The notes under the pieces: generated by a model
The model's database searches: none
Told to the model about the DNA's origin: nothing
The model's input: only the letters and a program-made list of their open reading frames with translations
In this document: one piece after another, positions 51,533-54,278 of the stretch
Layout of the letters: each line of letters begins with the position of its first letter
How positions within the stretch are numbered: the first letter of the stretch is position 1
NCBI RefSeq assembly: GCF_010645065.1
Contig: NZ_JAADZW010000002.1
Location: 1 to 64,000, forward strand
DNA length: 64,000 nucleotides
Direction of reading: 5' to 3'
Origin: Flavobacterium fluviatile
GTDB taxonomy: Bacteria > Bacteroidota > Bacteroidia > Flavobacteriales > Flavobacteriaceae
Program-made: the position numbers and the translations under genes

Positions 51533-52087
51533 TTGACAAAAGAACGCATCATATTAGGTATTGATCCCGGAACCACAATTATGGGTTTTGGACTGATTAG
51601 AGTAACCAATAAAAAAATGGAATTTCTGCAATTGAATGAATTGCAGCTTTCCAAATACGATAATCATTACCAAAAACTAAAAATCATTTTCGAAAGAACT
51701 ATCGAATTAATCGAGACGCATTGTCCAGACGAAATCGCAATCGAAGCACCTTTCTTTGGAAAAAACGTGCAATCGATGTTAAAACTTGGCCGCGCACAGG
51801 GTGTTGCCATGGCAGCCGGACTTTCAAGAGGAATCCCAATTACGGAATACGAGCCTAAAAAAATAAAAATGGCGATTACCGGAAACGGAAACGCCAGCAA
51901 AGAGCAGGTGGCGAAAATGCTCCAGCAACTTTTAGGCTTAAATGAATTGCCAAAAAATCTCGATTCAACAGACGGCTTGGCGGCAGCTGTTTGCCATCAC
52001 TTTAATTCTGGAAAAGTGATCGCCGGAAAAAGTTATTCGGGCTGGGATGCTTTTGTGAAACAGAATGAAGATCGAGTTAAAAAGTAG
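51533..52087 (+). CDS. ruvC: crossover junction endodeoxyribonuclease RuvC
   Basis: A 184-residue Holliday-junction resolvase. Catalytic acids are visible in ILGIDPGTTIMGFG (Asp11), AIEAPFFGKN (Glu), and DSTDGLAAAVCHH (two Asp). The start is TTG at 51533; no in-frame ATG lies upstream. RuvC resolves recombination junctions with RuvAB, which are not in the window. It precedes the first repeat-bounded cassette. Confidence 0.95.
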   Translation: MTKERIILGIDPGTTIMGFGLIRVTNKKMEFLQLNELQLSKYDNHYQKLKIIFERTIELIETHCPDEIAIEAPFFGKNVQSMLKLGRAQGVAMAAGLSRGIPITEYEPKKIKMAITGNGNASKEQVAKMLQQLLGLNELPKNLDSTDGLAAAVCHHFNSGKVIAGKSYSGWDAFVKQNEDRVKK

Positions 52088-52089
52088 TT

Positions 52090-52119
52090 GTTCAGTGTTC
52101 AGGTTTTTAGTGCTCAGTT
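52090..52119 (+). repeat. left terminal inverted repeat of the four-helix cassette
   Basis: It starts 2 bp after the ruvC stop and pairs with 52557-52587. The core word is TGAACACT and its complement, itself repeated in the right copy. Confidence 0.75.
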
Positions 52120-52155
52120 ATTTTCTTTCGTAGTTTCGTTATAAATAAAAATTTA

Positions 52156-52532
52156 ATGAGATTTCAAGATTTATTAGCTTACAAAAAGTCGTTTTCTTTA
52201 GCAATGAAGATATTTGATATTACCAAACAGTTTCCAAAAGAAGAAACTTATTCATTAGCCGATCAGATTAGACGTTCATCCAGAAGTGTTCCAGTAACAA
52301 TTGCGGAAGCTTATAGAAAACGTATTTATCCGAAACATTTCTACAGTAAATTAACTGACTCTGACGGCGAAAATTCTGAAACACAAGTTTGGCTGGAATT
52401 TGCTTTAGCTTGTAAATATATCTCAAACGAATCTTATAATGAGCTTTTGTCCGAAAGTGTTGAAATCGGAAAATATTAAATTATATGCTTTTGAACCCTG
52501 TAAAGTTTGGAGTTAAAATTAGTGACCAGTAA
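52156..52532 (+). pseudogene. four-helix-bundle (S23-like) protein, 3' frameshift
   Basis: The frame from 52156 runs 107 codons (MRFQDLLAYKKSFSLAMKIF, RRSSRSVPVTIAEAYRKR) and stops at 52477. The family's usual C-terminus is present one frame over: after ESVEIG, the bases continue as KILNYMLLNPVKFGVKISDQ to a stop at 52530-52532. A single missing A in the GGAAAA run explains both. These proteins derive from 23S rRNA intervening sequences (S23) and relate to the Avd accessory protein of diversity-generating retroelements. A -7 box TAGTTTCG is at 52131-52138. The 107-aa form may still be made. Confidence 0.75.
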
Positions 52533-52556
52533 AAGCTTTTAGGAGGCATTTTTGTC

Positions 52557-52587
52557 AACTGAACACTAAAAAAACTGAACACTGAAC
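52557..52587 (-). repeat. right terminal inverted repeat of the four-helix cassette
   Basis: It is 9 bp before the hemW ATG (52597) and is the near-exact reverse complement of the left end. Confidence 0.75.
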
Positions 52588-52596
52588 ACTAAAAAT

Positions 52597-53742
52597 ATGA
52601 GCGGCATCTACATACACATACCATTTTGCAAGCAGGCTTGCCATTATTGTGACTTTCATTTTTCTACCTCAATGAAAAAGAAGGAAGATATGGTTTTGGC
52701 TTTGGCGAAAGAAATTGCCATGCGAAAACCCTACGACTCCGCTCAGGATGACAATATCATTGAAACTATTTATTTTGGTGGTGGAACGCCTTCGGTTTTG
52801 GCCAATGACGAAATCAACTTTTTAATTTCAGAAGTTTATAAAAATTATAAAGTTGTGGAAAACCCTGAAATTACGTTAGAAGCCAATCCGGATGATTTGT
52901 CTTCAGAACGAATTTCAGAATTATCGAAAAGTCCGATAAACCGTTTAAGCATCGGAATTCAGTCTTTTTTTGAAGAAGATTTGCAGCTGATGAACCGCGC
53001 TCATAATTCGGCGGAAGCCAAAAAATGCCTGGAAGAAGCAACGAAGTATTTTGATAATATTTCACTCGATTTAATTTACGGAATTCCGGGAATGAGCAAC
53101 GAAATGTGGAGACAAAATATTCAGACTGCTCTGGATTTTGGTATTCCACATATATCAAGTTATGCTTTGACAGTTGAACCGAAAACAGCTTTGAGCAAAT
53201 TAATCCAAACAGGAAAAGTTGCCGAGCCACAAGATGAAACCGCTTCCAATCATTTTACGATTCTGGTTGAAGTGCTTCAGAAAAACGGTTTCATTCATTA
53301 CGAATTATCGAATTTTGGAAAAGAAAACTATTTCTCCAAAAACAACTCAGCTTACTGGCTCGGGAAAAAATATATCGGGATAGGGCCTTCTGCTCATAGT
53401 TATGATGGCGAAAAAAGAGGCTGGAATATTGCTAATAATTTGCTTTACATCAAAGCAATTAAGAATAACGAGCTTCCTATAGAAACTGAAATCCTGACCA
53501 TTTCTGATCGTTATAATGAATATATTATGACCGGTTTGCGAACGATTTGGGGTGTTTCGTTAGATAGAATTGAAAATGAATTTGGACAGGAATATTTAAA
53601 TTATTTAAAAGAGCAGGCTCAGAAATTCTTAAATGACGATTTGCTTTTTATCGAAAATAACATTTTAAAACCGACTCCGAAAGGAAAATTTTTGACAGAC
53701 GGAATTGCGAGTGATTTGTTTTATATAGATTCTGAGACTTAA
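52597..53742 (+). CDS. hemW: radical SAM heme chaperone HemW
   Basis: A 381-residue radical SAM protein. The cluster motif is FCKQACHYCDF (Cys11, Cys15, Cys18), followed by YFGGGTPSVL, LSIGIQSFFEEDL and the HemN_C domain near the C-terminus (GLRTIWGVSL). The absence of the extra HemN cysteine and the length favour HemW, which delivers heme, over coproporphyrinogen dehydrogenase. The gene lies between two repeat-bounded cassettes; its ATG is 9 bp after one and its stop codon is inside the terminal repeat of the next. Confidence 0.9.
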   Translation: MSGIYIHIPFCKQACHYCDFHFSTSMKKKEDMVLALAKEIAMRKPYDSAQDDNIIETIYFGGGTPSVLANDEINFLISEVYKNYKVVENPEITLEANPDDLSSERISELSKSPINRLSIGIQSFFEEDLQLMNRAHNSAEAKKCLEEATKYFDNISLDLIYGIPGMSNEMWRQNIQTALDFGIPHISSYALTVEPKTALSKLIQTGKVAEPQDETASNHFTILVEVLQKNGFIHYELSNFGKENYFSKNNSAYWLGKKYIGIGPSAHSYDGEKRGWNIANNLLYIKAIKNNELPIETEILTISDRYNEYIMTGLRTIWGVSLDRIENEFGQEYLNYLKEQAQKFLNDDLLFIENNILKPTPKGKFLTDGIASDLFYIDSET

Positions 53743-53772
53743 CCGCAAGGTTCGCTAAGATTTACGCAAAGG
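53739..53772 (+). repeat. left terminal inverted repeat of the GxxExxY cassette
   Basis: It overlaps the hemW stop codon (53740-53742). Words CCGCAAGG, CGCTAAG and ACGCAAAGG recur at 2006-2083 and, degraded, at 51428-51526. Confidence 0.75.
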
Positions 53773-53854: not shown

Positions 53855-54231
53855 ATGTCAGAAAATGATTTATACCGAATTGTCTTTAATTCCGCTTTGA
53901 AGGTTCATAAACTTTAGGTCCTGGTCTTTTAGAAAGTGCTTATGAAGAATGTTTATTTTTTGAATTGAAAAAATTAAACCTCAAGATAGAAAAACAAAAA
54001 GCATTGCCATTAATTTATGAAGAAGTAAAATTAGATATTGGTTATCGTTTAGATATTTTGATAGAAAATAAACTAATTTTGGAAATAAAGGCAGTTGATT
54101 GTCTAAATGAAGTTCACTTTGCTCAGCTATTGACTTACTTAAAACTAACAAATTGTAAACTAGGCTTATTAATTAACTTCAATGTTTCTTTATTAAAAAA
54201 TGGAATAAAAAGAGTAGCGAACAATCTTTAA
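53855..54231 (+). pseudogene. GxxExxY protein (PDDEXK-like), frameshifted near the N-terminus
   Basis: From the ATG at 53855 the frame reads MSENDLYRIVFNSALKVHK and stops after L. The family then requires TLGPGLLESAYEECLFFELK (the GxxExxY motif), which is present one frame over and continues to the stop at 54229-54231. One missing A in the CATAAA run restores the full 125-aa protein. The remainder has a PDDEXK-like core: KLDIGYRLDILIENKLILEI with the Asp, Glu and Lys (EIKAV) of the fold. Family function is unknown; a nuclease-like fold is predicted. Confidence 0.75.
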
Positions 54232-54244
54232 TAAATCCTTGCGA

Positions 54245-54278
54245 ACTTTGCGTAATCCCTAGCGTACCTTGCGGTTAA
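54245..54278 (-). repeat. right terminal inverted repeat of the GxxExxY cassette
   Basis: The reverse complement of the left end. It begins 13 bp after the GxxExxY stop and ends 9 bp before the cyclase-family ATG at 54288. Confidence 0.75.

Follow-up and report, generated by a model that had tools for sequence, protein, structure and literature searches.

The interval between ruvC and hemW in the window, by which we mean the whole 64,000-nucleotide stretch of Flavobacterium fluviatile DNA that was analysed, is probably a mobile hairpin unit resembling the intervening sequences (IVSs) of 23S rRNA genes, which sits between two cistrons and spreads faithfully to the same site. We put the probability of this reading at roughly 0.6, and this figure overlaps with those for the first two rival explanations, recombination after DNA uptake and independent REP-like repeats. 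Comparison of sequences supports real and pairable arms, several operon sites, an allele series, transfer, a preferred orientation, purifying selection and dispersed arms. S23-bearing IVSs in rRNA are known; new here are IVS-like hairpin units with S23 between protein genes. Searches of the open-licence literature yielded no account of armed S23 units lying between protein genes, GxxExxY genes in such units, or dialect hairpins.

The features of the junction, and of a second unit directly downstream, are listed in Table 1. When the left arm was aligned with the reverse complement of the right arm, 32 columns were obtained with 29 matches, 2 mismatches and 1 gap, giving a score of 47 compared to a mean of 18.0 and a maximum of 36 in shuffles (0/5000 as high), which confirmed the description of the ends in the earlier note as near-exact reverse complements. 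Both arms consist of degenerate short-unit copies and not of a single clean 30-bp terminal repeat, and therefore pairing is possible in several registers. The notion of transposon-like 30-bp terminal repeats is not supported, since the arms are variable, built of short units and common to repeats without S23. The arms abut stop and start codons, and the S23 gene is the only open reading frame (ORF) of at least 60 aa between them, as had been claimed (PF05635, E 6.6e-31, 107.1 bits, cut-off 33.8; TIGR02436, 97.2 bits, above the curated cut-off of 24). Its frame has one base fewer near position 52470 than that of four close relatives, and because of this it stops at 107 aa whereas the relatives reach at least 121 aa; either the copy is decaying or the base was missed in sequencing. 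Two further broken-looking S23 copies, each divided between two overlapping frames, were seen elsewhere (G026:C11:56604-56920 and G112:C17:186352-186671). When the RNA of the complete unit was folded, the two arms paired into a long stem that closes it (-120.3 kcal/mol, z -3.58 versus 100 shuffles). The unit has the complementary termini closing a stem around an ORF that characterize an IVS, but it is located between ruvC and hemW and not in a 23S rRNA gene. Rfam gave no match in the unit, and a sub-threshold hit in hemW to ZFAT-AS1_3 (17.8 of 70 bits) was taken as chance.

Table 1. Features of the ruvC-hemW junction and of the unit that follows hemW, in window positions.
Feature	Position	Strand	Length	Description	HMM
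ruvC	51533..52087	+		upstream co-directional neighbour	PF02075, TIGR00228
left arm	52089..52119	+		degenerate AGTNNTCAG copies; partner 52557-52588, 29/32 columns identical	
S23 / 23S_rRNA_IVP four-helix-bundle gene	52156..52479	+	107 aa		PF05635, TIGR02436
right arm	52557..52588	+		CTGANNACT copies; in the RNA fold closes long stem round gene	
hemW	52597..53742	+		downstream co-directional neighbour	TIGR00539
left arm of second unit	53743..53771	+		CCGCAAGG..CGCAAAG type, directly after hemW	
partial GxxExxY frame	53965..54231	+		covers only model positions 34-115 of 116	TIGR04256
right arm of second unit	54246..54274	+		partner of 53743-53771	

PF05635 S23 genes are present in 119 of the 121 Flavobacterium genomes and in 232 of 296 genomes sampled from the phylum. 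Eighty named S23 loci were fetched, and after two short ones had been dropped, 78 were tested for arms. Inverted similarity of the 250-nt flanks exceeded all 100 shuffles in 60 of these 78 loci; direct similarity did so in 24, thus some S23 flanks are simply repetitive. As a control, 393 genes of the window's own genome (464 kb), which include the window S23 gene and one GxxExxY gene, were treated in the same way. Inverted arms above shuffles were found for 6 of them, which is about the chance expectation at that threshold, and direct similarity for 15, and the best two of the 393 for inverted arms were the window S23 gene and the GxxExxY gene. The latter, ranking second, lies at L235:14666-15043. 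The number of base pairs enclosing the ORF had a median of 43.5 in the 78 loci versus 22.8 with shuffled flanks, and it lay above all 10 flank shuffles in just 25 of them. Across the phylum, only 11 of 30 S23 loci passed the strict arm test, and more show short-unit arms by eye (uncounted). The six S23 genes of the window's own genome carry, by reading, six different arm unit types, and in each case the opposite flank bears that type in reverse complement. An Rfam search at gathering thresholds around 20 S23 loci found no rRNA, the one match being an S16 leader. The part of the earlier note that placed IVS-like, armed S23 genes outside rRNA therefore stands; descent of such units from rRNA IVSs is conjectural.

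Whether the unit is a constant part of its operon can be judged from the junctions of the genus, in which RuvC was detected in 119 of 121 genomes. The 121 junction rows minus three duplicate loci gave 118 counted junctions (G115 left out), of which 21 were tight (-1 to 5 bp), 13 held S23, 59 held repeats without S23, and 13 held a lipoprotein-like gene; the remaining 12 comprised 5 unclassified, 3 short, and 4 without a readable hemW. The lipoprotein-like gene fills the gap in L156, L043, L044, L151 and L214, among others. In many relatives an arm starts at the ruvC stop codon. The junction states are scattered on the host tree of RuvC and HemW, and L041, the neighbour of the window on this tree (support values not read), carries an S23-less repeat of dialect C. 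On this comparison, the S23 unit is polymorphic at ruvC-hemW and is not a fixed operon part. The earlier note had named two outcomes that would speak against it, the lack of any other genome with an S23-like gene between the same ends and a fixed interval, and neither occurred. Related Flavobacterium species provide natural pairs of ruvC-hemW alleles with and without the unit.

The clearest sign of transfer came from F. glaciei and F. caseinilyticum (L092/L093), in which the gap including the arms is ~98% identical. Synonymous codon differences amounted to 1/103 in S23, versus 54/174 in ruvC and 86/335 in hemW (Bonferroni p 4.6e-9), and the identity in 60-nt windows fell from 0.95-1.00 within the unit to 0.73-0.93 in the adjacent coding sequence. 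Outside the unit, the two species first differ 15 nt ahead of the ruvC stop on one side and at base 12 of hemW on the other. This pair provides evidence that an S23 unit bounded by ruvC and hemW passed horizontally to the same site. Constraint on the S23 gene alone does not account for the likeness, since it extends to the non-coding arms, which in other pairs have diverged strongly: in L073/L074 and L079/L080, S23 is ~93-100% identical per window and the downstream arm region only 0.60-0.63 and 0.27-0.60, respectively. Among all 1128 pairs at ruvC-hemW, the synonymous divergence of S23 was below that of both flanks in 797, and at Bonferroni 0.01 in 8 that have species in common and are not independent, versus 0/1128 when ruvC was compared with hemW. 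In several species pairs, one of them very clear, S23 has thus diverged much less than the genes on either side.

The S23 gene is, judging from a median dN/dS of 0.096 (409 of 1176 pairs with usable dS), under purifying selection, and its divergence is correlated with that of HemW (pN rho 0.78). In the S23 tree, the genes at the ruvC site form one 45-row branch (91/89), nearly all from Flavobacterium, and four ruvC-site copies are found elsewhere (two Zobellia, one Arenibacter, one uncultured). Site labels changed 11 times on this tree, compared to 31.9 times in shuffles, and because they cluster in this way, residence at each site is mostly long and site changes few. The frequent jumping to new sites that the earlier note had implied is not borne out. 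Selection, the single large branch and the correlation with HemW would all be expected if S23 were simply a vertically inherited resident gene with regulatory or terminator-like arms. We consider this improbable, since S23 occupies just 13 of the 118 junctions, scattered on the host tree, and its synonymous divergence falls far below that of the flanks in several pairs.

The orientation of the units is strongly biased. The upstream neighbour, called by open frame, was co-directional in all 78 named S23 loci and the downstream neighbour too in 73, although 48 of the 78 are the same junction and not independent. Among further S23 loci, the upstream gene was co-directional in 32 of 33 readable cases (35 tried, two dropped for an unreadable neighbour; p 0.0006 versus controls), one of the 33 lying antisense to both neighbours, and for GxxExxY loci this was 24 of 25 (30 tried, five dropped; p 0.005), compared to 255 of 356 control genes of the window's own genome. 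Sense placement would be in line with a requirement that the unit be read as RNA together with the operon, or with harm done by antisense copies. S23 units are also present at other operon sites in Flavobacteriaceae, for which the names KdsC-, 3HCDH- and NqrD-like reflect a reading of the neighbour proteins with no HMM behind them.

Simple patterns divided the 59 S23-less junction repeats into several unrelated dialects: 15 belong to A, 13 to B, 22 to C, 7 to D and 2 to E. A fold z below -2 was found for 47 of the 57 folded repeats (A 15/15, B 13/13, C 17/22, D 2/7), which makes D a weak dialect; E was outside the folded set. We then exchanged the halves of these 57 repeats in silico. The pairing energy was -19.5 kcal/mol for own halves, -19.9 for halves swapped within a dialect, -9.3 for halves from another dialect and -11.3 for shuffled ones. 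Within a dialect, a repeat's own arms had no pairing advantage over swapped ones (p 0.09; own pair ranked first in 3/48), and in B repeats the swapped halves were even better than their own, so that arm swapping gives no support for compensatory change within individual arm pairs.

These data bear on the possibility that ordinary homologous recombination after DNA uptake swaps the gap, the arms offering short homology and S23 being a passenger. All observed transfers are same-site, the site labels are clustered on the S23 tree, and the arms are interchangeable within a dialect and dispersed, so that they could act as homology. On the other hand, there is very little co-conversion of the flanks in L092/L093, recombination between inverted arms should invert the gene, which conflicts with the constant upstream orientation in the named and further loci (78/78 and 32/33), and S23 and GxxExxY stand out among the 393 genes for their arms. 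We regard recombination of this kind as a possible but doubtful explanation of the whole pattern, and hold to a mobile, site-faithful hairpin unit.

The same kind of arms surrounds a second gene family. The arms of the second unit in the window are identical in 25 of 29 columns, when the left is compared with the reverse complement of the right (0/5000 shuffles), and of the 30 GxxExxY loci fetched from the genus, four were dropped and 20 of the remaining 26 had inverted arms (direct similarity: 3). In 12 of these 30 loci, the gene adjoins hemW. A same-site transfer signal for the GxxExxY unit was found in 1 of 66 pairs (L249/L253, p 7e-5 uncorrected) and is weak.

Arms without a gene are dispersed in the six genomes examined for them: a BLAST search with one unit returned matches to the arms alone, elsewhere in the genome, in every one of the six. 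The A motif CAGTNNTCAGTNNTCAG is present in 84 of 121 genomes, with 0 to 194 copies each, and the same pattern backwards, used as control, was rare in most genomes. It reached 44 copies in G016 and 23 in G096, possibly because repeats of a different dialect look similar there. No arm motif was found in the window's own genome under the strict pattern. Genomes with a window-type S23 (E below 1e-18; 43 genomes) had a median of 7 A-motif copies versus 1 in the 78 without, with a p-value of 6.6e-8 that ignores kinship, and five or more copies were present in 28/43 versus 16/78. The most motif-rich genomes without window-type S23 were G034, G040, G021, G071 and G116. The total number of S23 genes was correlated with the A-motif number at rho 0.25. 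The density of S23-less hairpins gave no convincing trend with S23 number in 20 genomes, for which few intergenic regions each were available and terminators were among the hits. Two S23-free genomes had hairpins in 0/19 and 2/27, the latter two terminator-like by eye.

The hairpins might instead be independent REP-like repeats that are spread by another enzyme, with S23 and GxxExxY genes settling in their loops. Such an origin would account for the excess of S23-less repeats over S23 units at the junction (59 versus 13 of 118), for arm motifs in genomes without window-type S23, and for the unrelated GxxExxY family with the same kind of arms. It sits less well with the number of arm motifs tracking window-type S23, as in the 28/43 versus 16/78 above, and with the two genomes that lack a PF05635 match (G041, G072), which have no recognised-dialect repeat at the junction, one being tight and the other having an unclassified 77-bp gap; two genomes are too few to weigh much. 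We consider this explanation rather unlikely, and prefer that arms and gene belong to one mobile unit.

The window S23 protein matches the solved structures 2rld (E 1.2e-8) and 2gsc (E 2.4e-7) by sequence. An AlphaFold model (pLDDT 72, four helices) resembled both at Z 8.2, below the level trusted for helical bundles, and scored Z 8.9 with Avd (4dwl) and 7.6-8.6 with the Avd chains of the reverse-transcriptase complex of diversity-generating retroelements (DGRs), the top match being an unrelated metalloprotein (Z 9.4). Z values below 13 for a helical bundle may reflect merely a common arrangement, and the likeness of the modelled structure to Avd is suggestive only. To our knowledge, no function has been assigned to the S23 'four helix bundle protein'. 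Its invariant basic residues among 27 S23 sequences (R39, R40, K55, R56, and others) would fit nucleic-acid binding. S23 and DGR Avd have in common that they belong to related families, and PF05635 is reported to resemble Avd (PMC10053308). They differ in that S23 falls below the curated Avd cut-offs (PF22296, 38.3 of 40 bits, E 2.1e-9; NF033474, 31.6 of 80 bits) and that the unit is without a reverse transcriptase (RT).

This kinship raises the possibility that S23 acts like Avd with an RT in trans, which copies the hairpin RNA into DNA. The variability of the arm units would then stem from copying errors, and sense placement fits an RNA step, in addition to the PF22296 match and structural matches of Z 7.6-8.9. 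However, the unit contains no RT, the four RVT_1 matches of the own genome are on contigs C115 and C19 and not on the window's C40, and the Z values may stand for a common helical arrangement. RVT_1 was found in only 58 of 121 genomes, to which both S23 number (medians 6 and 6 with and without, p 0.56) and arm-motif number (p 0.93) are indifferent. An RT in trans as a general requirement is ruled out by this distribution, and we judge the whole scheme highly improbable.

For the IVS-like unit that we favour, the following course of events can be pictured. The gene of an Avd-related four-helix-bundle protein would lie in the loop of a long hairpin, in sense between co-directional genes, be transcribed together with the operon, and the RNA would then fold. 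By analogy with rRNA IVSs, RNase III may cut the hairpin unit out of the mRNA, and because of such excision an insertion between cistrons would be tolerable and the sense bias explained. An S23 oligomer might bind the hairpin RNA of its own unit. The unit could reach the corresponding gap in another species through homing-like events or recombination, guided by the arms and the neighbouring genes; no enzyme for this was found among the ORFs of at least 60 aa in the unit, S23 being the only one. S23-less hairpins would be related units from which the gene has disappeared or in which it was never present. More tentatively, and with clearly less confidence than for the junction itself, these units may form a new class of RNA-structured elements of Bacteroidota, dialect-armed sense hairpins swapping in and out of the same gaps, with S23 or GxxExxY (PDDEXK_3) as mobility factor, S23-less hairpins as non-autonomous progeny, and rRNA IVSs as the best-known outlier. 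The link of the S23 and GxxExxY families to one armed, sense, intercistronic and same-site-transferred unit gives both a testable role, and raises the prospect that rRNA IVSs represent one particular form of a wider kind of hairpin element.

Several known systems have parts of this organization. REP, BIME and REPIN sequences with RAYT are short extragenic palindromes in many copies, and their larger units carry a gene flanked by inverted copies, which resembles the arrangement described here. Unlike REPIN-RAYT, the resident genes are S23 or GxxExxY and not a Y1 transposase, and the palindrome sequence varies by dialect. In Coxiella, the IVS of 23S rRNA bears S23 and has a 28-bp stem that is cut by RNase III (PMC4990558), so that both systems place an S23-family ORF inside complementary termini forming a long stem. 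The window unit differs by its position between protein genes, its arms of variable short-unit repeats in many dialects, and S23-less repeats of the same kind dispersed through the genomes. For rRNA insertions of CPR bacteria, retention at the same sites has been reported, with both descent and site-specific homing proposed as the cause, together with a 23S_rRNA_IVP ORF in both 16S and 23S insertions (PMC11270868). Same-site retention and this ORF are shared with our units, whereas the CPR ORFs are mostly LAGLIDADG or GIY-YIG nucleases in rRNA genes, and the S23 unit lies in protein operons without a known nuclease.

Some further repeats were noted. The window's own genome has S23-less intergenic hairpins at L240:7241, L243:19536, L231:19424, L247:15937, L236:6375, L234:9570, L244:3141 and L228:4154, and these eight match the unit types of its S23 arms (AAACCTGAAAC, AATTCC, TAATTAGT, CTGANNACT). 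In L174, L176, L189 and L227, repeats of the CCCCCAACCCCCAAAGGGGG or CCCCCAAAGGGGG type lie between ruvC and hemW or at the end of ruvC. Finally, long hairpins TCATTGCGAGGAACGAAGCAATC and CCTGAGCGGAGTCGAAGG were found at L230:19080, L240:14629 and L233:8824, and also in one of L359-L361; these dispersed intergenic repeats seem to vary less in sequence than the dialect hairpins.
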